Positions 2,917 through 63,910 of a stretch of DNA of 64,000 nucleotides are shown in pieces (position 1 is the stretch's first letter; every line of letters begins with the position of its first letter). The position numbers were made by a program, and so were the translations under genes. The notes beneath the pieces were generated by a model. The model was not told the DNA's origin, searched no databases, and saw nothing but the letters and a program-made list of their open reading frames with translations. The DNA is taken from contig CAIIXF020000006.1 of assembly GCA_903813345.2 (NCBI GenBank), positions 932,001-996,000 of the forward strand, in the 5' to 3' direction. Source of the DNA: Owenia fusiformis (lineage: Eukaryota > Annelida > Polychaeta > Sabellida > Oweniidae).

Positions 2917-5900
2917 TCAAAGCATTGCTAGATTTGTGTATGTTATATCAGAGTTCCAGGATTGTGATGACGACGTCACAATGGTGTCATTAATCCCCAA
3001 CAAACCCTGATAATCCGACCCTCCCAGAGCAGACTCTGCTGTAAACGGTACGGTTGCCTGTAGCTCGCCTTGATTGTCTGTGTAGCTGTTGAAGCCGTAT
3101 CCGTTTTCTTGACCGTAATTCTCCATTGGTGGGGTATCATAGTTGTAAAGGACAACATCTTTGTTGATCACGCTCTCACCTCGTGACTTCTTGGCAGGAG
3201 AGAAGCCTCCATCTTGGTTTGATCCATTCTGTGCTGTTGGCTTAGCACGACCTCCATTGGCGTTTGCTGGAGCTGGAGCCGCTGCAAGAAAATATGAGTG
3301 AAAATATCGTTTTTATCAAAGGTCTGGTCATATAACTCTAGAGTTTCCTTACTAGACAAAAGCTGATCCTGTAGACCCATTTGACCGTCATTTAAATAAG
3401 GGCTTGGAATTATTTATGTTTTTCTAATATGACTCTTTGGAACGAAGTGATGAAATCACTTAGCTGTCAGGCAATGGAGCGTAAATAATAGGATATAATC
3501 AACTTTGTGTCGGAGATCATCAATAATCCATTCTGGTGTATTATATTTTACCACCCTTTATCTGAGCCTATCCATAGATTAATAAAGGGAACTGTGCATA
3601 TATGTGACGGGAATGACATCAAACGCTATGACAGTCATCTTGTAACTATGTCATTCTTTATTTGGAGTATGGGCGAAACATGATAACTTGAGACACTATG
3701 GTATTTCATTATCCAGATTCGTGTATCTTATATGTAAATAGACCCTATATGAACGTACGTCTTTTCTTGGCAGGTGTCAGTGGAGGCGCAGGGGAATCAC
3801 TACTGTGTGGAGGACTTTCACCAGCCTCATCATCGTCAGCGTCACCATCAGCACCTGGCTCGCCTGTCCATTTACCCTCACGCTTTAGCCTAAACAAAAT
3901 GGGTGAATAAAGATGTAAGTTCTCTGTTGTTCTATCTATCATTTATTTTTGCCAAAAATTATTTTATTTTAGCAATACAATCAAATGTTTATTTGAAATA
4001 ATTTTCCGGAGAACCATTGTTATTAGCAAATAAAAATACATAATATGAGAATACTGTATGCATTTCGAAACAAACATTTTTCGTTTGATGATTATTGGGT
4101 CAATCATTGCTTTGGCTGTTTACCTCTTTTCTTTAGCACGTCTGTTTTGGAACCATACTTGGATGACTCTCATATCGAGCCCGGTTCGACTGGCCAGATC
4201 CTCCCGCAGTTGACGGGTGGGTTTGGGAGTGTGTTTGTATGTCTTTTTGAGAACGTCAAACTGTTGAGGTGTTAAATTGGTCCTGGGTCTTTTGTCTCCT
4301 TTATCCCCCTCATCGTCAGAGTTAGGATGGCCGCCTGTAAGATGATCAAAACATGTTAATAAGTCAACGTACGGCTCCTAAATATTTTTGCGAGGGAAAA
4401 CTGAGCGTGGTCATGGACAAACTGATAAACATATTAAGAAAGTAGTAAGACATTTAGGATGGGTTTTAATACACCCACAATGCAAACATCCCCAGTCCCT
4501 CTGGCGTTTATACCAAGTTACTTTCTCCCCTGAATATATGTTGGGTACTGAATTAAAATGCCATTTAGATCATTCTATCTTAGACCATTATAATGATATT
4601 GTTCCAAATGGGGGAATTTTAACCTCATGTAGGCTACCTGAAGATGGGGCGTTGCTAACATTGTCGCTGGCCGTTTGGTTCTGGGTTAAGTTCTGCCTTG
4701 TAGCGTTATAGTCATATTTACACAGGAGGCGATTGTCGTCTGCTATGTAAAACTGACCTTCAGGGTCAAGGTCAGTTTTGCATATTTTGCACACGAAACA
4801 ACGTGGGTGGTAGGCGGTGGTGTCGGTTCTTATTATCTCTCCCGATGGGGGTATCATCACCCCACACGAGTCGCATTTTGTACCAAATCGTCTACAAGAT
4901 AAAGTAAAATTATGAAAATGAAATTTTAGAAATTATTAGAAAGTGTTAACAACACCATTAATAATATTTCTCTTCAATTACAAATGCCACCCATGGACTT
5001 GCTTCGGATTAAGATTACAAAGATAAATTAAAAACGCATTGTAACAGACTGTCAACATAAATCATGGACTTCGTGTCAATATTCATAAATGATCTAGTTA
5101 CCTGAGGAAATCATCTTTACAAAATACGTTGTTTCCTTTTGAGAAGCATTTGCCTGCCAATTGGATGCCACAGTCTGAGCACTTGAGGCAACGTGAGTGC
5201 CACGGTCGATCCAACACTTTGTGAACGAACCGATCGAGAATGGGGTCTCCGCATCCCGTACATCGGAAAATGGAATCTGAAAATATTGTGCAATCAAATT
5301 AAATAAAATGGCCTTTATGATTGCAATGCTCCTTTTACTTTATATGTTGCATTTACATTTTAGCCGACTCTATACTTCGTATTATGATCTAAAGGATGAG
5401 GTTCAATGATACTGACTCTTTGTCTCAATTCAAATAATAGATGTCACCTCGCTCAATACATGACTCCCTAACAATAATTAGATGCTTTTATTTACAACAC
5501 TAGGTAAAAGGTGGCTCGCCAATCGATACACTTACAGTTGGGTAAGTAGTATGGCGACGTTAAGCACAACCCTATACTTCCATTGACAACTTAAAATACT
5601 TTCTATTGACATTTTTCGAGTGGAACAAGCAACTTCAGTAAAATAGGAAATATTTACAATACGTACACTTGAATACTTGCGTCATTGTCTTGTTTATGAA
5701 TAAGACATTTGCGTAAACTAGCTGAATAAATATAGCATGTGTACTGACACTTTTCTTTCTTTGCATTTACGGCAGCATAGATAGATATGCATCGATATGA
5801 ATGAGTGAATAAATTGTATGAACTGACTTGATGAAACAGATAAATCCAATAAAAATACACAAACGTGCTTGTTCGAATCGATCGCGATCGATAATGATAA

Positions 5901-22097: not shown

Positions 22098-23410
22098 AGG
22101 GGAGGCCGGGGCAAAACGGGACACAGTTTCAGGCAGGCTGTCAGACAAAAATGAATACACATTACATTTGGCATTCTAATTAATGTTTACTTTTAAATAA
22201 ATTCAAGAAGAAATGGAATGATATATCTTTTGAATACAGCGAATTTGTTAGGGGTAACCGGGGTAAAATGGAACATCAATATAAACTTAAACTTCAAAAT
22301 GTACCATTACCTCAGATGATATACATATTATTTGATTCAATCGATTCAGTACTTTTAAATTATTTCATTATTTTGTATTTTAACTTTGAAGGTATTAATG
22401 AGATCTTGATGTATTGGGTATTTTTATTTTTTTAGAAAAATAATGTTTAATTTTTTTTATAAAATAAAATATTTTCTTTACTGGACATATTTTTAGTTTG
22501 TATAACTATCAGATACATAGGGGTAATATTAAAAGTGAACCACTAAAACTGATAAATATTCAAGTTTAAGGGAACCGCAATACCCAGCTGCCATCGATGT
22601 TATTTCCCCAGAATTAGCCACCTGGTGGCGAAACAGGTACCTACTCGCATCTAAGTAATTTAAATGAAAGCGATGCGATTAACCAGGGTGGTCTAAAATT
22701 TTAAGTTAGTTCCGCAATAATTTCAACTATATTTTAAAACCTTTGAAAGTAACGAATATGACAAATTGTCATATATAAAGATATCAAGAAGGTGTGTTTT
22801 GGTTCAAAAATGAAAACTTGAACTAAAACTAAAAAACAATTATCACCGCTGGGTTTCGAACCCACTCCATCATAGGCTAAGCAAATGGGCTCATAAAAGG
22901 CCCAAACATCCCAAAAATTGCAACAGTTTTTAAATTAGTCTTATATTATGTATTGATATCAGTTGAAAAACATATCAAAAGTATAGAAAAATGTATGCAG
23001 TGGACAAATATGAAATTTCACTTCCTAGGTACCCCCTACAGCCCTACCCCAAAATTGAGTATTGGTAGGAAACAATTTTTTCTTCCCAAATGGAATACTT
23101 TAGTCAAGTATTCAAGCTTTATTATGATAGATAACATATTCACAAATAATTAAAATATTATTTTAATCATTTTTGAGACCAGTAATTGGTCATTTGACCC
23201 CAAAGTATAACAAAATAGGCACAAAACAGGCATGTTATCACATATCTATTTAGATATTTTAGGATCAGTTTGTCAGAAAAACATGAAAAAAATCATGGTG
23301 TTACATATTCATATGAACTTCATATTTGGAGAGTGTCAGAATTCTAACGTGTATACTTAGGAAGAAAAAAATTACTTCATTTTCATAGTTTTGCCCCACC
23401 CACTATAGGG
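22098..23410. mobile_element. Degenerate transposon-like segment with GGGGCAAAAC ends
   Basis: Begins with AGGGGAGGCCGGGGCAAAAC and ends with GTTTTGCCCCACCCACTATA, suggesting eroded inverted ends. It includes GGTATTAATGAGATCTTG, also found in the fold-back at 40.7 kb. It also includes a block (22905-23037) repeated in inverted orientation at 26982-27110. No coding capacity was found. Confidence 0.45.
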
Positions 23411-24300
23411 GAGACTATAGTTTTTATGACTAACTCCCACAATGCATCACATTTGTGTTAGAGTTGACATCTAAATCGTTTATATAGGCTTGTCATCATC
23501 TAAAATACAAGTTTTGTGAAGGTTTATACCTTATTAGTATGAAAAATAGGAATTATTAGTTGCACCAGGTGTGACCTCACTTTTATTTGATGAATAATTA
23601 CAAATCACCACTTTGATATTAGGGTATTAGGGTATTTGATAACTGCTATACTAGGCTTATCTAAATAAATAATGTAAGTTGTAGTTTCTGTGCAATTTAA
23701 TATTGTTTAAATTAAAATTATTAATTACAATCCGCAATTACAAAATTTGCATATATTTAAATCCATCAGATAAATAAATCATCACATAGGAGTACATTAC
23801 TATGGAACTATCAATTGGATGTATAATGCTGTAGAAACTAATTTATGGTTATTAAACGGAATTTAAACTGATAGAGCACATTTAAATCTCAGATATCTGG
23901 GGAGTCTTTCATTAATATAATTTCAGTGCGTAGGAATGATGGTAATTCTGTCTGTCAGGTTGGAAAACATTGAGTGTGCATGTGCTACATTCAGAATCGG
24001 ATGCAGATATTGTGATTGTGAAAACTGTAATCCAAAGTGTCCAAACCTCAAATACAGTTCTCATACAGATCTCCTTGTGTACACAAACTTCAACATTTTC
24101 CTCAAACCTGAACCAAAAGCAGTAACCCAAGAAACAAAATGTTGGAATATAAATGAAATAAGATTGTCTTTTGTTTATCTTTTCTGGGGTGTGACACCGC
24201 ATTCTGGTTATACCTGGCATAGACAAGAAGCTATCATTGAGGCAGATAAAAAAGATAGAGTTCTTGAGAAAACAAGCGGTTGTTTTTAAATTACCAAATG

Positions 24301-24777
24301 GGTCGTTTCGGTAACAAAATGTCTAAACGTCGAAGGTACGATTTTTCTTTTTTCTTTTTTTCACGCGTTATAGGCAGAATCCCCACGATGTTTTTTCTTA
24401 CCATCGTGATCGTGTATCAGTATCATATGTTTTAGAAAATGTACATGTTTGCGCAAAATTAGCTCAGAAGACAACAGAATTGTTGATTTAATTCCTTACT
24501 AAGTTACATAAACGATTTGGGTCAAAAGTGCAGATCTTAACTGTTTATCGAAATACCGTTTATGTAAATAAAGTGAGGAATTAAATCGACGATTATGTTG
24601 TCTTCTGAACTATTTGTTCGCAAATATGTACATTTTTTAAACACATAATACTGATACAATTTTGTGATAACAATGTTGTGGAAATTCTGCCTACAACGTG
24701 TGAAATAAGGAAAAAAGAAAAATCATACCTTCGATGTTCCGACATTTTGTTACAACGTAATTAAGTGGAAACCAGTG
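24301..24777. mobile_element. MITE, GTTTCGGTAAC family, copy 1 (left end eroded)
   Basis: Long inverted arms: GTCGAAGGTACGATTTTTC on the left and GAAAAATCATACCTTCGAT on the right. The right terminus is CCAGTG at 24777. The left terminus has lost CACTGG, yet AAATG flanks both sides (24296-24300 and 24778-24782). Same family as 31556-31943 and 32841-33259. Confidence 0.8.
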
Positions 24778-24996
24778 AAATGCAAGCAACTCTGTCATTG
24801 CAGAGGAACATGCTCTTTTGTCAATTTAAGGTGGAAAAACGGTGAAACCCTAACTGAACTTAGGCTTCAAAAATTCTATTAAAAGAGAACAGCAAGATCT
24901 GAATTATTGCAGCCCCGTGTTCTTCCTCCAATTTCTGATATTTGTGCAAATACCTCCATTACTGATTATGAAAATAATGGTGACTAAATAATGAAC

Positions 24997-25372
24997 ACTG
25001 GCGGATCTGGGGGCCGCGCCCCCCCCCCCCCTTGGGTTACCCTTTGCATTCGTTTGACTTCACTCCTTAAAAGAGAACTTCGTCTTCGTCTGTAGTTTAA
25101 CTAGACTCTGCACGCAGGGTACCCTTGGGTGGGCCCAGAAAAAAATAGGGCCTGAAAAAGGCCTTAAGGCCCCGAAAAGTGGGCCTTTTTGGTCATTAGT
25201 GGGCCTTTTAAGGCCTTATTTTTTAATTACAGGCCACATTTGAAGATAATGGGCCTCAATGTTTCAAAATTTAGGGTTTTAGGGGCCCAAATTTTTTTTC
25301 CCGCGCAAGCCCAGATGTTTTTTTCTCAGACCTGAAATTTGCCCCCCCCCCTTGTTGGTTCCCAGATCCACG
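24997..25372. mobile_element. hAT-like MITE with GGCGGATCTGGG ends, interrupted
   Basis: Starts CACTGGCGGATCTGGG and ends with CCCAGATCCACG. The interior is homopurine/homopyrimidine-rich (GGGCC, AAGGCC, GGGCCC runs). It contains a nested 84-bp MITE at 25038-25121. A second family member lies at 53449-53723. It is non-coding. Confidence 0.65.
25029..25130. mobile_element. 84-bp MITE, TACCCT ends, perfect 9-bp target duplication
   Basis: The element at 25038-25121 starts TACCCTTTGCATTCGTTTG and ends CACGCAGGGTA. It is flanked by a perfect CCCTTGGGT duplication (25029-25037 and 25122-25130). It inserted into the hAT-like MITE, so it is the younger of the two. Confidence 0.92.
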
Positions 25373-25698
25373 TACCCTTAATGAAGTTTGGTGATAGACA
25401 AGTTTGTAACTGATTGTTGCCATATATGACGGTTAAGATTACAAAATTAAGGCAGCTTTTTGACAATGAACATAACGTAATCGAACCATGCCCTGTATAA
25501 AGACCCCGATAAAGACCAGGGATTTACTTTGTTTTACACTAGTTAACTCAGTAGGATTTATTAACGTAGAAACCTTTTCCTCATTAATTATTGAATTTCA
25601 TCTTGAAATCCAATTCTTCAGTTGAACTTCTTCATTTCATTTCTCAATATCACTGTGTGGTTAAGAACACCTTAGTCAAAAGTAACAATTTTTCCTTA

Positions 25699-26245
25699 TA
25701 CAGGGCGAGCCAAAAAGGTAACCCAAACAAATCTTAATAACTCAGTCCAGTCATCCTGCATGAGTTGAGTCTTGGTCAATGTATTATCAATCTACCCAAT
25801 CTCAGTGGTCTATCTCTAGTGGTCACGATTTTATGGCCATTTTATACCATGCCATGAAATATGGGTGTCATGCCTGGAGGCCAACTTGAACGTATCGTGC
25901 GTAGTTGTTCAAATCAAGAGCATAAAAATCTTGTGTTATGGCTCTCATCTTCATTCTTATCTCTTGTTTTAATGTTTCAAGTGTTGCTAGTATAGAAGAA
26001 AGGTCCACAGATAAAAAAAACTTGACTTGGCATTGATGTCCAGTCAGTTAGGCACATTTCGATATTTTGAGCACAGTTTGTAAATGGCCATAAAATCGTG
26101 ACTATTAAGGATAGATCAATGACACTAAGCAGAATGAAAGAACATTGAACAAGGTAATTGTGCCAAATATGATGTCAAACCCATGCTGAATGACTGGGTT
26201 ATTAACAAACATTTGGTTGGGTTACCTTTTTTGGCTCATACTGTA
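25699..26245. mobile_element. Tc1/mariner-type non-autonomous element with TA flanks
   Basis: The element at 25701-26243 has inverted ends CAGGGCGAGCCAAAAAGG... and ...CCTTTTTTGGCTCATACTG, each flanked by TA. The ends match for about 30 bp. The 543-bp interior has no transposase frame, so it is a non-autonomous mariner-like copy. Confidence 0.85.
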
Positions 26246-26981
26246 TTAATAAACTGATGACAGGGACAGGGATATTTAACATTTTGTTGCCTTTTCAAGG
26301 ATATTTTTAGACCACTGATTCTACTTAATTTCTAACAAATCGTTCTCTGTTCTACCAGAAAAGGTATATTATATATCAAATTGAATTTAAAGGGAAAAAC
26401 ATTTGATAATTTAGCAGTTATCAACTAAAAGTAGGGCTTCCCCTATATTTCACCTGGCATTTGCTGTTTTTTTTTACTTTTTTTTACACAATTCTTTCCT
26501 GAAAACATCAAAAAACTGATTTCAGGACAAAATAAGCCTTTACAAATAATTTAGTTGTGCTATTGAGTTCAAATATGACATATCTTTGAAGTAATTAATC
26601 AAAAGTAAGGTCACCCCAAAAGTGGGTGTGGTAAAATATTGAAATTTCAAATATTATTTTCACCCTTAATATTCACTTAATGACCCTGATACTTATCAAA
26701 TACAATGGTCAGGTGTACAATAACCTCCTTGATTTTTTTCATGCAATTCAGATAAATTGATACAGAAATAGATACATTGTTAAATTAAATACGGGCTATT
26801 TGATGGCCTATTTTCGGATAATTGGGGCTAGAAATGCCAATTTTTGCACTCAAATAGTTGGTTAACAATTTTTAGTTGCTCTTATGTCAGTAAACTATCA
26901 TAATATTACTCGTTTAGTTGACAAGAGCATTCTATTTTGAAATAAAAAAATATTTACAATCCCATACTCAAATTTGGAGGG

Positions 26982-27110
26982 GGGTACCTAGAATGTGACA
27001 TTTCACATTTGTCCACTGCATATATTTTTCTATATTTTTGATATGTTTTTCAACTGGTATCAATATACAATATAAGCCTAATTTAAAAACTGTTGCAATT
27101 TTTGGGATGT
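26982..27110. repeat. Inverted duplicate of the 22905-23037 block
   Basis: Contains GGTACCTAGAATGTGA, GTCCACTGCATATATTTTTC and TTGCAATTTTTGGGATGTT. These are reverse complements of segments in 22905-23037, with substitutions. It probably reflects two insertions of one element in opposite orientation. Confidence 0.75.
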
Positions 27111-27960
27111 TAAACTTCCATTTGCCTAGCCTATCAAGGTCGTCTATACATTAGCCAATATATTATATTTAGCCACTAAAATATTGTATCACTGTTTGAT
27201 CGTGGGATTTTTTGCAAAAAATCGGCAAAAAATTAACCTTTTTAAAAAAATTTCAGCCATTTAATTAACATTAATTTGTCCATCTGTCTCGTAAAATCCT
27301 TGGACCTTGCCTTAAAACCTCTATCGATAGGATTCCAGTTTTAAGTTAGTTTTGTTCAACATCAATACAAAAAACTCTCCTATGACTCCTGGTTCAAAAG
27401 CTCGCCTATTGGTCGACATTTTTGTCTCGTGGAATTCACTTTTGGCCCATTCCCTAACTTTACAAATAATTCCACGTGTCCTGCATTGTAAAAAGCCATG
27501 CCATGTTAAGAGTAGCTATATAAAATAATTTTGTTACAAAAAGCTGGCAAAAAATTATCCGTTTTTTATTTGTTGTCATTTTAGCCATCATTCACTTTTG
27601 AGCAACACCATGTGAGCCAAGTATCCACGGTACTATTTTTTTCTTTAGGGGGAAGGGCAGAATATTTAAAGATGTCATTTTAAAAGCAAAAAAGGCTCCA
27701 AAACGTAATAAAATATGTAGTTTGGATGTTCATTTATGTCTGTGAATTATATTTTATACCACAAACACTTATAAATACCTGAAATTTGCAATAAAAGTGC
27801 CCAAATATTGTTGTTTCGAAATTCCCCATTTTTCCTGTATCGCGGTAGTCACGTGACCCTTACGCGGAGCAGGCAATGCCTAGTATTACAGATATTACAG
27901 TACATATTTCAACATGTTCAATATGGCAAACATCAGCGATTCTGACTCCCGGGTTCTAGG
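27111..27960. other. AT-rich spacer, nothing recognised
   Basis: No gene, RNA gene or bounded repeat is supported here. It ends at the TATA-like box upstream of the decayed ORF at 28036. Confidence 0.45.
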
Positions 27961-56377: not shown

Positions 56378-59300
56378 ATGGATCTCAACGCATTGGTGGG
56401 TGTACTGGAAGCGACTTTAGACCCAGTCCAGCAGCAAAAGGCCGAGCAACAGCTCAATGAGGTGAGAAAATATTGCGACACGTTTCAAAATGGCTGACAT
56501 TTTTTCCTCTTCATTTTGCGAGATATTTCACAATATTGTCTCGTTTACAGTGTACAGACGAATGTCGGTGTATAAAGCGTATATTCCTTTATTCATTTGT
56601 GATTTGATGGTGCCCAGATAACCATTTGAGCTATCTCAGTTGCTCATGAAAAGGAAGACCAGGAATTTCCATTGAAAACGTAATTTTCACTTTTTGACAT
56701 GAACATGTGGATAGATCTATCGGTGAATGTTGTATTTCCTATCTTATTCATAACATTAGTCATTCTTGTATGAATTCATATTCGTCCTACCTCCACAGTA
56801 ACAATAAATATATAAATTAAGGTCTCATGGAAGTTAACAGGAAATGACAAAACAGGAAGTGACAATTTTTTGGGCATTTTTAGACATTTTTTGAACAAAG
56901 ATAACAGAGTTCTGGTTTGACCTCCAGTCAATTTAACTGTTTCCACATATCATCTACATGACCAGGATCACAATGTGCATGGTCAGAATGACCCTAAACA
57001 TGATGAAATAACCTTTTTAGTCCCTTGAAAGTGTGACTGAAAAAAAGCTAAAAGTAGGAGCTAGGGAAGGTCACTGAACAGAATCTTTTGAATTTTTCAG
57101 AAAATGTGCCCAATATAATGCTCTAACTGATACAATCTTTGAAATTTTAGAAAATTGTCGTAAACAAAAATGGCGGTCATAAAAAGGAAAATAGATCGCT
57201 TTTCAAATCAGTTTTTTCATTTTTTTTCTCTTTCTATGAATGATATCAAATTTTCAAAGATTGTACCATTTAGAGCAATATATTGGGCACATTTTCTGAA
57301 AAATTCAAAAGATTCTGTTCAGTGACCTTTCCTACCTCCTTCTTTTAGCTATTTTTCAGTCACATTTTCATAGGGCTGAAAAGGTTATTTCATGATATTT
57401 AGGGTCATTCTGACCATAAACATTGTGATCCTGGACCTGTAAATGGTATCTGGACCTAGTTGAATTGACTGGAGGTCAAAAGTGAACTCTGTTATCTTTG
57501 TTCAAAAAATGTTTAAAAATGCCAAAAAAATTGTCACTTCCTGTTTTGTCATTTCCTGTTAACTTCCATGAGACCTTAATGTATCTTTTGTTTGCGATTT
57601 CTTTAGGTTCATAAAATTATTGGCTTTGGCCCAGTGCTGCTACAGGTGGTAATGTCAAATGAGCTTAAACTGCCCACAAGACAAGCTGGGGTGATCTACC
57701 TGAAAAACATGGTGGCCCAGTTCTGGCAAGAGAGGGAAGTTGAGAACCCCAGTGATCCTGTTCCATTTTCTATCCATGAACAGGACCGAGCAGTTATTCG
57801 GGAAAATATTGTCGAAGCTATCATATTCGCTCCTGATCCAATCAGGTATTAGATCTAAAATCTAATTAAGATACATTTTATTCCATGAATCAAAGAACGT
57901 TTTATCTCCAATTCAAAAATGTGTAAGAAACTAAATGTGACTGTGCCTGTATCAAATGATCGAAAATTACTCCTTTTTATTATCACAAATATACAAAGGC
58001 TATAAATATTTGGCATCATATCAAATATTCCAAAGACACAATAATTTCATCACATTTATGGGGCAAGTATATAATCGCTTTACTGATGAGAACTGTCTAT
58101 CACATCAACATTAAGTTATCAATATCTCATGACAATCAATTATTTATTCCAGGGTTCAGTTAACAGTGTGTATCAGCAACATTATCAAACATGACTTCCC
58201 TGGACGTTGGGCTGCCCTTCCTGAGAAGATTAATGCCCACCTCCAGTCTGACAATATAGCATCATGGCTAGGCGCACTCATTGTCTTATATCAACTTGTG
58301 AAGAATTATGAGTAAGGCATAGATTTATAAAATCTGAAATTTTAGAATTGACTGTTTTTCGAATAAATATGACAATATTTAAGGAAATGGGTAATATTTT
58401 CCAAAATATTATGTGGGTATTTATTCATTATTGTAGAAAAACATAGTTCAGAATCAAAATCTTGTTAAAATTATGTGAATCAACATTTCCTCAAATTTTT
58501 AAAAAAAAATTCTGAAATAGTGAACTTCCTTAGTGAAAAGCATAATTTTAACTTTGGGATTTAAACAAAGAAGTCATTTTGATTTCTCTAGCAGACTTTT
58601 AAAATGGAGTCTTCACAAAAGCTTTTTATTTTTATGGTAATCTTGATGTGATATTTTCTTAAGATATAAAAAAGCTGATGACCGCAACACATTGAACCCT
58701 GTGATGACTGTGTTCCTACCTATTATACATGAGAGATGTGTCTTATTGCGACCAGACACCTCCAATGAAAGTCACCTACTACAGAAACAGATCCTGAAAA
58801 TATTCTATGCCTTAATACAGGTAAACCGAAAGTGTGTGTCATACTTGGGTTGAATATATCATGCATTTATTCAGTTAGGCGGTTTTAAGGGTTTCGGGTG
58901 ATGTCAAAATAGAATTACCAACCCGTTGAAATTATACTGTAGATTTGAAAAAATCACTGTGAATGCGATCATTATGTCATTTATTCTCATGTAATAATAT
59001 TAACAATTATAGACTATATTTATAGAGATGATAATAGAGATATAATAAGGTGTAAATATGGGCAGAGTTCTTGACATAGCGATTACTCAGTGTGGATGAG
59101 TCATTCACTGTGTTGGAATTATTTTAGAAAAGTATGAGTTACTGTCTGGTTTCAAGAATAATAATTGTATGTTTTTAGTACCACTTGCCATTGGAGCTTA
59201 TAACAAAACAGATTTTCACCCAGTGGATGGAAGTGATAGGCCACATAATAGACGTAGAAATCCCAGATGTAAGTCATATCTTCATTGATTCTTCATGTCA

Positions 59301-62300
59301 TGCTTATGCTATGATATAATATGAGGTAATGATGCAATATGAGGTTATTATATAAGTCACATTGCATGCGTTTCATAGATTCCATAATCCTTGTAGAGCT
59401 GTGTCAAAATATCAATGATTTTCCATGATTTATTTATCAAAGCCTTACCCCCCTTGCTTGCTTATTATTGATATAATAAAGGCCTTTCATCGGTCTATCT
59501 ATCTGTCTGAAGTCTAACTTAAATACTAGTTAATAGGCTTTATTCACATTTGGGAAAAGATTTATGATTCTGTTTACTACTTGTTTTACCTCTAAAGTTT
59601 ATGGCAGATTGATATTTCAGTTATTTTTAATACATTGATAGCGTTCCCCGTGCTGTTGAAGTAATGACTGCATGGTTTTAGACTATCATAGATTAAAAGT
59701 GAAGCACTTCACCCATGGCTTAAGGCACCTAGCTAGACAGCAATGGTTTTGCTGGATACAGCCATGGCTTTGCGACTTCAAACATATTTACTTTCTTGTA
59801 CTCATCACTTGTAAAAAAAAAATGATACTGTGTTGTGTAAAGCTTTTTCTTTGCTTGAGCAGCAAAAATATTAAATCGTTTAGCTAATGGAAATAAGAAA
59901 TTCATAAGAATTTAATATAAAATCTGTCATGCTGACTGTATCATTATACTTGTTGTAGACCTACCATGCTGATAAAGATGAGGAAGAGAGACCAGAATTA
60001 CCATGGTGGAAGTGTAAAAAGTGGGCTTTACATATTTTAGCCAGAAGTTTCGAGAGGTAATATTTTTCATTGGTCTTTCCTTGTCATTTTCTTATAAGCC
60101 TGATAAAGTTTGGCTGAATAGGGTAATTACACAGGGTTACTTATAAATGCTCCAAGATCTCAAATGGCTGCAGCTTCCACTTTCCTCAGTGTTGGAGGAT
60201 ATCTGCTCTTTAAAAACTTGAGTCAGCCAGATTAATTATCCTGTCTGACCAACCAGATTACATTCATGTTCTTAATTGAGGATCACTTATGATAAGAATT
60301 TCAATAATTAGATTAAATGATAGAATACAGATGTTTCAAACTAGTATTCTATTTTTAATGGTTGGTGTGATGATGTACGCCTTTCGGGTCTGATCAGTGT
60401 ATGATTGATAACTTCCATATATGGACCCTGAACACCAACCATATACCATGTGTAATGCTGTTGAGCTGTAGCACTATTCTTGTCTTTGAATTGGTATGTA
60501 AACGTGTATATTTTACTTGATTGTAGGTATGGTAGCCCAGGAAATGTAACCAAAGAATACAACGCTTTCTCAGAGTGGTACTTAAAGAGTTTTTCAGGTG
60601 ATTATGGTTGATTTTATTTTTCACATGTACATTTCTGGCATTTGGGAGTCAGGGTATTGATTGAAAGAAGTCTATAGTAAGGTCTGTTACATAGGTCTGT
60701 GTCAGACTAAATAGTTTGTACCGTACATAATCATAGATTCTACATCCAAATTTATGTATGAGTCACATCAGTTGGAAATGTAATACCTATCTCTGGGATG
60801 TATTGCATCACTTCTGAAAGACAAATGAGCTTATGTATGTTTGAATCAACTTAGCAGTATACAGTACAGTAAATGTGACGGTCTTCTATTTTGTTTAGGT
60901 GGAATAATCAATGTGATATTGAAAGTTTTACATCGGTTCCAACAGAAACATTATGTGACACCCAGAGTTCTACAACAGGCACTCAACTACATTAACCAGG
61001 CTATCAGCCATGCTTTCTCATGGAAATACATCAAACCACATATGCAGGTAATTTTGGTTGTAACTGTTTGTCTGGTGGCCAGATTTCTTGGACATGAACA
61101 ACAAATCAACATTTTCATTGTGCCTTTGGTACTTTTGATTTGAGCCCTTTGACTTGACTTCTTCCATTTGAAAAAGGTAATTGAATGTTGAGGCATGACA
61201 TCTTTTTTTGTTACGTTTACTTACTATTCATTGATGGTGTGATGATGTACGCCTTTCGGGTCTGATCAGTGTATGATTGATATCTTCCATTTATGGACCC
61301 TGAACACCATACTTCTTGGAAGAATAAAACAACGAACCTTATATTAGCTAGCAACCTGGAAAAATTTTAAATTAACTAAGATCTGAAACCTAATAACATA
61401 CAACTACAGTAACTATAAAAAAAGCTAATATATTATATAAGCCAAAGTCATCTTATTTCACTTATGTATTTGCATTTTTCTATAATTCTATAATTTGTGT
61501 TCTATTTCAGACAATAATTCAAGAGGTTTTGTTTCCACTGATGTGTCACTCAGATGATGACGATGAAATGTGGAATAACGATCCACATGAGTATATAAGA
61601 ACAAAGTTTGGTAAGTGAACTCTCTTAGCTACACTATACATGTACAGTACTCCCTTCTAAGCTTAAACTTAACACGAGTTGCACTTTATTTGAAAATGGT
61701 GGGAGACAATTTTGAACATCTTCGATGTAAAATCAGCAGCTTTTCTTACATTTTTGTATAATAAGGTGTGATGATGTACGCCTTTCGGGTCTGATCAGTG
61801 TATGATTGATAGCTTCCATTTTTGGACCCTGAACACCATATTATATCTTGAGTCCTTGTTCATGCTGTGCATTTTATTTATATTAAATCATCCTGTTTTT
61901 ACCCTCAATATTTCTGTTCACAATACTATGTACCATTTTTAGTATCCATCTTCATTCAATTTGATATTGTTTTCCAGATATTTTCGAAGATTTTATCTCA
62001 CCAGTGACAGCTGCCCAAACAGTTCTGCATTCAGCTGTGGCAAAACGTAAAGAAGTGCTACAGAAATGCATGGGCTTCTGTCTACAGATGATGGCCATTG
62101 ATAGTGCTGCGAACCCACGCTTGAAGGATGGTGTCCTTCATATGGTTGGAGCGGTGGCTGATATTTTATTAAAGGTAGGAAGGATTTTTGTGTGAAAGGC
62201 AATCGTGAGAGATCGATGTTTGATGTGGAATTGTGTGTTCTCTGTATTTATTGCCAATGAGTTAGTATGTAAAACATCTCATCGCAAGATCCCCTTTTGT

Positions 62301-63910
62301 TTTCATCATTATGATTGAAGGTCACATAATGAGCCTGTTGGATTCGTTAGTCCGTTTGTGTGTATGTCTATCAACACTTTTTGGAAATCCATCTTTACAT
62401 TTTATAGCGCAAGATCTACAAAGACCAAGCTGAAACAATGTTAGTGACACACGTCTACCCAGAATTCTACAATGATCATGGTTTCCTGCGTGCAAGGGCA
62501 TGCTGGGTTGTACGTTACTTCTCTGAGGTGCAATTCAAGAGTGAAGCAAATCTGATCAAAGCTCTGCAGGCGGTGCAGGGTTGTCTATGTGGGGACAAGG
62601 ACCTACCAGTAAGAGTGGAGGCAGCTATTGCTCTACAGATGCTCATCACAGAGCAAGAAAAGGGTGAGTCTGCCTATACAGTATATGCTTTTGTCTGTCA
62701 TTAAAGGCAGGGATTCCTTACCATATGGTAAAATTAAACCACAACCCTATTTAATTTTGATGCAGCCTATTATGTAAACACTATAACAGTTTTATATATT
62801 ACATTACATTTTTGAAGTCAGATAGGAACTACTGTTTAAATTTAAAAGTACCATCAGATTCAGAAGATATAGTTCATGAATAACTGTGACAAAGTTAAGC
62901 TGATTCCATGCAAAAATACTAGAGATATATGGAAAAAACAGGACTGATGTGTCCGATTCTGTGGACATTTAAATTTTCAAACATGCTATTACATCATTTT
63001 CTAACTGACATTCTGCTTTTATAGTGGAGCCCTGCCTTTAAGACATTGGAGAAATGACTGACCAAAAAAATTTGCTTCAAACTAATTTTCATGATTAAGT
63101 ACTAAGATATTGTTGAATTATTGGTGTGATGATGTACGCCTTTCGGGTCTGATCAGTGTTTGATTGATAACTTCCATATATGGACCCTGAACACCATCGT
63201 AACAAATTATAATTTGATTAAGAATTCAGTTGCCTTTTTATTTTAACTAATTATGGATTTCATTTGCAGCTCAAGATCACATGCGGCCATATGTAAAATC
63301 TGTTATACTAGAAATGCTTAAAATTATTCGTGAAACTGAGAATGACGATCTGACAAATGTCCTACAGAAGCTAGTCTGTACATATGTGGATGACATCCCA
63401 CCTATAGCAGTAGAGATGACTCAACATCTTGTGAGTACTGTTGCTTGTAAAATAAATTTCATATTGAGTCATTTTAGAATTAACATCAGGGAGCTATATG
63501 ATTAAATAGTATAGAATTGTTTGTGTGATGATGTACGCCTTTCGGGTCTGATCAGTGTATGATTGATAACTTCCATATTTGGACCCTGAACACCATCATG
63601 TATTATTCTTAAGATTTGGTATCTAGACAGTGTAAGATATGATGTGGAGCTTGTAAAGAAGAGGTGTGATGTTTAACACTCAGTACAGTTAATGAAGAAA
63701 TGTGATTTCAAATGCAGGCAACCACGTTTGGTCAGATCATCCAGTCTGAAGATGGTGAACAGTCAGATGAGAAGGCAATAGCAGCTATGGGGGTTTTGAA
63801 CACAATAGATGCCATCCTGACTGTAGTGGAAGACCACAAAGAGATCATAGCTCAGCTGGAGGGCATTGTCTTGCAAGTTGTAGTCATAACCTTAAACCAG
63901 AATGTCCTCG
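56378..63910 (+). CDS. IPO7: Importin-7/8 nuclear transport receptor, exons 1-13, 3' end beyond window
   Basis: Exons: 56378-56461, 57607-57845, 58153-58311, 58664-58820, 59179-59268, 59959-60056, 60527-60597, 60899-61047, 61511-61610, 61978-62174, 62408-62663, 63270-63430 and 63718-63910. All are GT-AG and in phase, giving 651 codons plus one base of a family of about 1040 residues. The N-terminus ([23 protein letters not shown]) and [16 protein letters not shown] form the importin-beta N-terminal domain that binds Ran. HEAT repeats follow, with family blocks [43 protein letters not shown] and [11 protein letters not shown]. The protein carries ribosomal proteins, histones and signalling factors into the nucleus. 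It probably represents the single invertebrate gene before the vertebrate IPO7/IPO8 split (fly moleskin). Five of its introns host box C/D snoRNAs. The Ran-binding N-terminus is intact and no frame break was seen. Confidence 0.97.
56817..57579. mobile_element. 755-bp fold-back element with TTAA flanks in importin intron 1
   Basis: The element at 56821-57575 starts GGTCTCATGGAAGTTAACAG and ends with the reverse complement. TTAA is present on both sides (56817-56820 and 57576-57579). Arms of about 350 bp make nearly the whole element palindromic. TTAA duplications point to piggyBac- or Kolobok-type mobilisation. No transposase is present. Confidence 0.9.
60360..60440 (+). ncRNA. Box C/D snoRNA copy 1, importin-7/8 intron 6
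   Basis: A 9-bp terminal stem GGTTGGTGT/ACACCAACC closes the element. Box C GTGATGA is at 60367-60373, D' CTGA at 60390-60393, C' TGATTGA at 60402-60408 and D CTGA at 60428-60431. The guide before D' is GTACGCCTTTCGGGT. Before D a hairpin TCCA-TATA-TGGA is possible. The D box lies 95 nt from the 3' splice site, so the RNA would be made by debranching and trimming the intron. This copy has the longest stem of the five. Confidence 0.9.
61234..61310 (+). ncRNA. Box C/D snoRNA copy 2, importin-7/8 intron 8
   Basis: Terminal stem ATGGTGT/ACACCAT. Box C GTGATGA is at 61239-61245 and D CTGA at 61300-61303; D' CTGA and C' TGATTGA lie between as in copy 1. The D' guide CGCCTTTCGGGT is identical to the other copies. 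The internal hairpin loop reads TTTA here. Confidence 0.9.
61765..61837 (+). ncRNA. Box C/D snoRNA copy 3, importin-7/8 intron 9
   Basis: Terminal stem GGTGT/ACACC. Box C GTGATGA is at 61768-61774 and D CTGA at 61829-61832. D', C' and the D' guide are unchanged. The internal hairpin loop reads TTTT. It sits alone in a 367-nt intron. Confidence 0.9.
63122..63196 (+). ncRNA. Box C/D snoRNA copy 4, importin-7/8 intron 11
   Basis: Terminal stem TGGTGT/ACACCA. Box C GTGATGA is at 63126-63132 and D CTGA at 63187-63190. D' and C' are conserved. The spacer before C' has GTGTTTGATTGA instead of GTGTATGATTGA. The D box lies 79 nt before the 3' splice site, close to the distance usual for intronic C/D snoRNAs. 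Confidence 0.9.
63522..63595 (+). ncRNA. Box C/D snoRNA copy 5, importin-7/8 intron 12
   Basis: Box C GTGATGA is at 63525-63531 and D CTGA at 63586-63589, with the same D' guide. The 5' flank reads TTGTGT against ACACCA, so the terminal stem is reduced to about 4 bp. This copy may be less stable or drifting. The internal hairpin loop reads TATT. Confidence 0.82.

Follow-up and report, generated by a model that had tools for sequence, protein, structure and literature searches.

The importin-7 gene of the annelid Owenia fusiformis (Oweniidae) carries, in eight of its introns, near-identical elements (termed here family A) that are predicted, on the basis of sequence, to be intron-encoded box C/D small nucleolar RNAs (snoRNAs) with the function of snR39b/SNORD2, marking the 28S ribosomal RNA (rRNA) at the nucleotide that corresponds to human G1509; this reading is given a probability of roughly 0.85. 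Five of the eight elements lie within the stretch of DNA analyzed here (the window), which comprises 64,000 nucleotides (nt), namely positions 932,001 to 996,000 of contig CAIIXF020000006.1, and three lie beyond it, in a gene whose 3' end is about 5.3 kb past the window end. An earlier, sequence-only reading of the window had counted five copies; this number holds for the window and is too low as a total, because the remaining introns, where that reading had proposed to look for more, contain three further copies (in introns 15, 16 and 17).

The family A elements are about 75 nt long, all run in the sense direction of importin-7, and occupy introns 6, 8, 9, 11, 12, 15, 16 and 17. The intron numbers follow a model assembled by hand, whose 20 exons are all bounded by GT-AG and which encodes 1037 amino acids; a protein search aligns Xenopus importin-7 over the whole of this model (1370.7 bits) and finds a deposited Owenia fusiformis protein that is 100% identical over 1037 amino acids. 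Given this exon model, a 31-nt core that is present without mismatch in all five window copies (chance expectation 0.00), and pairwise identities of 92-100% over 73 nt among the eight copies, the near-identical sense elements first described for introns 6, 8, 9, 11 and 12 are confirmed, with starts shifted by 1-3 nt. Identity of this kind is limited to the elements themselves: the 50-nt flanks, compared in register, are 12-46% identical, and when all 19 introns are compared by blastn (E ≤ 0.01), every match between different introns falls on an element of family A or of a second repeated family (family B, described below), with an overhang of at most about 20 nt, so that the surrounding intron sequence is indeed unrelated. 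Within the elements, box C, the guide and box D' (28 columns) are invariant in all eight copies, as is box D; the copies vary only at stem bases, at position 6, in the spacer between D' and C', and in the stretch from C' to D. When one family A element was searched against the 498-Mb assembly, eight matches were returned (E ≤ 0.001), all inside importin-7, a count that is a lower bound, as a diverged copy would escape; copies scattered through the genome outside genes, which had been named as the finding that would speak for a different origin, were thus absent from the matches.

Each copy consists of GGUGU, a single G and box C (AUGAUGU), followed by the guide ACGCCUUUCGGGU, box D' (CUGA), a variable spacer containing a C'-like UGAUUGA, a further variable stretch, box D (CUGA) and ACACC, with small variation of the stem between copies. 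Boxes C, D' and D, by which C/D snoRNAs are recognized, are unchanged in 8 of 8 copies. The consensus of box C is RUGAUGA, from which AUGAUGU differs in its last base, and GUGAUGA occurs 3 nt upstream in seven of the eight copies; box C is read as AUGAUGU rather than as GUGAUGA because the former is kept in every copy, because GGUGU/ACACC closes beside the boxes, and because the SNORD2 consensus has AUGAUGG at the aligned position. The terminal stem GUGU/ACAC can form in all eight copies, with extra contiguous pairs in seven, and in some copies it extends outside the shared region through copy-specific pairs (reaching 11 base pairs in copy 1). The boxes C, D', C' and D of the earlier description therefore stand, with C' only C'-like, whereas its stem that ends where similarity stops does not hold for some of the copies. 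The stem has a covariation score of 0.234 versus 0.122 for shuffled controls, with 3 of 500 shuffles scoring at least as high; the contiguous pairs beyond the shared region number 20 versus a mean of 6.9 when flanks are swapped between copies (P = 0.005); and pairs counted outward from the four invariant ones number 25 versus 17.7 in a re-pairing control (P = 0.022).

A simple C/D scanner, at a score of at least 8, detects 10 of the 12 importin-7 copies of families A and B (missing family A copies 3 and 5) and finds nothing on either strand of window positions 1-56300; the 19 introns, when scanned in antisense, give no match at a score of 6 or more. A chance motif is ruled out by the 31-nt core and by the scanner's blank over positions 1-56300.

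The function assigned to family A follows from its guide, for which the earlier reading had proposed no target and which leads to 28S rRNA. Together with the C of box D', CGCCUUUCGGGU pairs with the worm's own 28S rRNA over 13 nt, all Watson-Crick (that C and the 12 nt that precede the box), the 28S partner being GACCCGAAAGGCG; C/D guides have about 10 nt or more of rRNA complement beside D or D', and here 13 nt stand at D'. When the element was simply shuffled 2000 times, a pairing of 13 nt anywhere in 2.4 kb of the worm's 28S arose in 6 cases. By the D'+5 rule, the relevant guide base pairs with the G of GACCCG; judged by complementarity, this predicted target corresponds to human G1509 and yeast G805, the site of snR39b/SNORD2. 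In the literature, SNORD2 is assigned to 28S 1509 (the yeast site is numbered 803 in one table), and Entamoeba Me-Eh-LSU-G926 and Plasmodium PFS8, with the guide CTTTCGGGTCTGA, are assigned to yeast G805/human G1509. All three, that is, family A, the Entamoeba RNA and PFS8, have in common CTTTCGGGT followed directly by CTGA; in Entamoeba the guide precedes the final CTGA (box D), and in PFS8 it precedes D'. Drosophila Me28S-G1083, a tentative counterpart, was dropped, its equivalence to G805 not being established.

The claim that importin-7 hosts putative box C/D snoRNAs, one per intron and in the sense direction, is thus supported at the level of sequence. Mechanistically, each spliced-out importin-7 intron would release its family A snoRNA, the several copies presumably feeding a single RNA pool; boxes C/D and C'/D' of this RNA would recruit the fibrillarin complex, with the terminal stem closing the structure; and the stretch before D' would pair with its 28S partner, so that the G opposite the fifth position upstream of D' receives a 2'-O-methyl group. 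The guide also appears to have shifted in step with a derived change of two bases in the worm 28S.

The evidence for such a change comes from the worm's own 28S, which was located using a 28S stretch as the query; this gave four matches, two of which cover the target site (on contigs C108 and C501). Both fragments read GACCCGAAAGGCGGTGAGC at the site, with GGCGG in place of the GAUGG of the eukaryotic consensus (the Rfam eukaryotic large subunit (LSU) consensus is GACCCGAAAGAuGGUGAAC versus GACCCGAAAGGCGGUGAGC in the C108 fragment). The SNORD2 consensus guide, CAUCUUUCGGG, suits the consensus target, and the worm guide, CGCCUUUCGGG, suits the worm target in all eight copies. According to the consensus structure line, the rRNA helix partner of these bases is CCaUCU in the consensus and CCGUCU in C108, A-U becoming G-U and U-A becoming C-G; the helix is kept in C108 despite the changed bases, which speaks for a constrained rRNA. 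Two 28S scraps occur on C1, one of which (L019) contains the adjoining downstream sequence TGAGCTATGCGTGAGC without the site itself, and the other of which (L020) has CCGTCT; that the derived bases recur in these scraps argues against a contaminant. Fragmentary 28S pieces lie on several contigs of the assembly, with derived bases shared among some of them, and no intact ribosomal DNA (rDNA) unit was seen among the 28S pieces examined.

Several observations weigh against this picture of the elements, their function and their changed target. Within the elements, the stretch preceding box D differs between copies and has no established target. The stem scored for covariation was picked from copy 1; the stem pairs changed on both sides number 5, which 263 of 500 shuffles match, and the further pair types are matched by 115 of 500. 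The contiguous stem of copy 5 is GUGU/ACAC only, copy 3 is without the U-A pair at column 13, and single-strand folding is unremarkable in four of the five window copies (z from -0.36 to -1.20; copy 1 has z = -2.44). The Rfam SNORD2 model (RF01299) gives 17.2 bits for copy 1 and 20.0 for copy 6, below its gathering score of 37, and is listed for none of the other six copies in the Rfam scans; for copy 1 the SNORD70 model scores higher (21.2) and the SNORD83 model close (16.3), and a gathering-level Rfam search of the window returned no family for the C/D elements. Family A is snR39b/SNORD2 by its guide and is outside RF01299 by its score. Applied to 20 kb at C6:1006001-1026000, the C/D scanner gave one other match at a score of at least 8 and missed the family B copy. 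On the side of the target, the site is covered by just two 28S fragments, both of which have the status of candidates for expressed rDNA, and C501 has CCTTCT where C108 has CCGTCT, which breaks the second helix pair. Each fragment has a run of 5000 N in its vicinity, which begins about 150 nt past the site in C108 and lies about 1.6 kb before the site in C501, and a gathering-level Rfam scan of the C108 pieces (16.6 kb, of which 5000 are N) gave LSU only, without 18S or 5.8S. Because its helix pair is broken, C501 may be a decayed copy; it is identical to C108 at 395 of the 400 positions before the target site. The N run has identical coordinates, 22501-27500, on C108 and C501.

The fuller reading is that guide and rRNA target co-changed (AU to GC), that the new guide was fixed in eight copies either by gene conversion or by later multiplication, that importin-7 is a hub with 13 snoRNAs in three families, and that copy number was perhaps raised for full methylation of the changed 28S site. 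The odds on this are put at even, a judgment that already allows for the C501 mismatch weakening one of the two rRNA copies.

The alternative that survives best, itself somewhat doubtful, is that only one or two family A copies are active and that the rest are neutral or decaying duplicates without selection for dosage. The short stem of copy 5 and the missing pair of copy 3 fit this, as does the spread of distances from the element to the 3' splice site (73 to 476 nt); the identity of box C, guide, D' and D in all eight copies amid unrelated flanks speaks against it. Selection on copy number for dosage is possible. The earlier suggestion of recent spread by local duplication is not demonstrated, the similarity between introns being limited to the elements in the blastn comparison; this limitation indicates either old duplication, with likeness kept by selection or gene conversion, or precise insertion. 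Neither residual flank similarity nor marks of retroposition were found for the eight copies and 19 introns. Copies 6 and 7, in the neighbouring introns 15 and 16, have CA where the other family A copies have TG, suggesting that neighbours have exchanged sequence or been duplicated from one another.

That family A is a snoRNA-derived retroposon, or some other mobile element that landed in introns, is very improbable. The copies do stop near the RNA ends amid unrelated flanks, as such an origin would suggest, but all eight genome matches lie within one gene, one per intron and all in the sense direction; moreover, target-site duplications in the eight copies do not exceed those of shuffles (at least 108 of 300 are as long), and within the 20 nt that follow the elements, A runs reach a length of 1 to 4 at most. 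Family A thus lacks the hallmarks of a snoRNA retroposon, namely, target-site duplications, an A tail and dispersed copies. Least probable of all is a role mainly in cis, in which family A would control the splicing of importin-7 by folding onto the host intron, an activity described for human SNORD2 in its host EIF4A2 (PMC10324135), given that the duplex with the downstream intron is unremarkable in all eight copies (28-94 of 100 simple shuffles are as good, in a comparison of low power; for other elements the values are 8 for family B copy 1, 16 for family B copy 4 and 6 for the SNORA79-type element).

Table 1. Coordinates of importin-7 and of the snoRNA-like elements in its introns (window positions unless stated otherwise)
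Feature	Position	Strand	Details
Host gene importin-7, exons 1-13 of 20	56378..63910	+	hand-built exon model and protein matches
Family A copy 1, intron 6	60363..60437	+	box C 60370-60376; box D 60428-60431
Family A copy 1, guide including the pairing C of D'	60378-60390	+	box D' 60390-60393
Family A copy 2, intron 8	61235..61309	+	
Family A copy 3, intron 9	61764..61838	+	
Family A copy 4, intron 11	63122..63196	+	
Family A copy 5, intron 12	63521..63595	+	shortest contiguous terminal stem among the eight
SNORA79-type H/ACA snoRNA, intron 5	59636..59787	+	Rfam RF00600
Family B copies, introns 13, 14, 18, 19	72-153, 607-688, 4366-4447, 5073-5154 of downstream stretch L009		C/D-like, repeated

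The same gene contains two further kinds of element, namely, the C/D-like family B and a single H/ACA snoRNA of the SNORA79 type, which scores 67 bits over its full length versus a gathering score of 55. Together with family A these make 13 elements (8 of family A, 4 of family B and 1 SNORA79), which occupy 13 of the 19 importin-7 introns, one each; the probability of hitting 13 distinct introns by chance is 0.0013 when elements are placed by intron length and 0.0040 when they are placed uniformly. A genome search for family B gave five matches (a lower bound), four in importin-7 and one at C6:1019823-1019889; this fifth copy, on the minus strand about 18 kb away, lies in an intron of a DDB1-like gene (a host recognized by eye) and is sense to that host. 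In family B, TTTGTTTTAATT, one base before D', pairs over 12 nt with AATTAAAACAAA in the C10 28S fragment, a pairing reached by 14 of 2000 shuffles; the D'+5 rule then leads to the second U of AAUU, for which no known guide is named, and word searches of the literature for such a guide returned no snoRNA paper, as judged by title.

Intron 18 contains a further C/D-like element (about 68500-68590 in extended coordinates; L009 about 4500-4592), which ends in CTGAGAACAATTAG and is possibly a diverged copy of family B. It was left out of the count of 13 and, if real, would break the rule of one element per intron; its longest rRNA run, in the 28S sequence tested, is 8 nt, no better than shuffles (1812 of 2000 are as good). 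Other repeats were also seen: in intron 1, a foldback element (window 56802-57594) with inverted arms of 347 nt, 90% complementary, at a spacing of 99 nt; in intron 14, an insert (about 858-1722 of L009) with terminal inverted repeats GGGGTCACACGGTT...AACCGTGTGACCCC, recognized by eye and perhaps a DNA transposon; and, on the stretch that includes the fifth family B copy (L014, minus strand, about 1835-1750), a tRNA-like sequence, GTTCAGTGGTAAAGCAC...GGGTTCGATC, likewise found by eye and perhaps a tRNA-derived short interspersed element.

Importin-7 imports ribosomal proteins, so that ribosome supply and rRNA modification would be served from one transcript. More generally, the gene offers a natural case in which to ask how multiple guide copies keep the same sequence as their target changes, and whether the dosage of a guide is set by the number of its copies within one host. 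A word search of the literature for snoRNAs together with Owenia fusiformis gave nothing relevant.

Among known systems, SNORD2/snR39b shares with family A the CUUUCGGG guide before D', the AUGAUG form of box C, a similar length and the predicted target nucleotide; it differs in that the worm host is importin-7 rather than EIF4A2, in that the worm has eight copies, in that these score below the Rfam gathering score, and in that the consensus guide has CAUC where the worm guide has CGCC. The vertebrate location of SNORD2, in intron 3 of EIF4A2, is thus not that of the worm elements; this mismatch is not taken as defining because snoRNA hosts are known to change. Plasmodium PFS8, assigned to Gm805, has GCCTTTCGGGTCTGA in common with the worm guide, likewise before D', and differs in being a single gene downstream of RPL7a. 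Importin-7 is itself a known snoRNA host: human IPO7 harbors the H/ACA snoRNA SNORA23 between exons 13 and 14 (PMC8763008), which is the vertebrate H/ACA snoRNA that the sequence-only reading had mentioned, and the worm gene likewise has one, the SNORA79-type element of intron 5; in IPO7, however, there is a single H/ACA snoRNA, and the accessible text of that paper mentions no C/D array. The repetition of one C/D guide within a protein-coding host has a precedent in chicken U18, which occurs in introns 2, 5 and 6 of RPL4, and the presence of one guide in several introns of a single host is stated as a general pattern in the literature. U18 has three copies in a gene for a ribosomal protein, whereas in the worm the host is importin-7, with eight copies and another repeated family besides. 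Hence, the copying of one guide into multiple introns is known; what is striking here is the copy number, the second family within the same gene, and the proposed co-change of guide and target.

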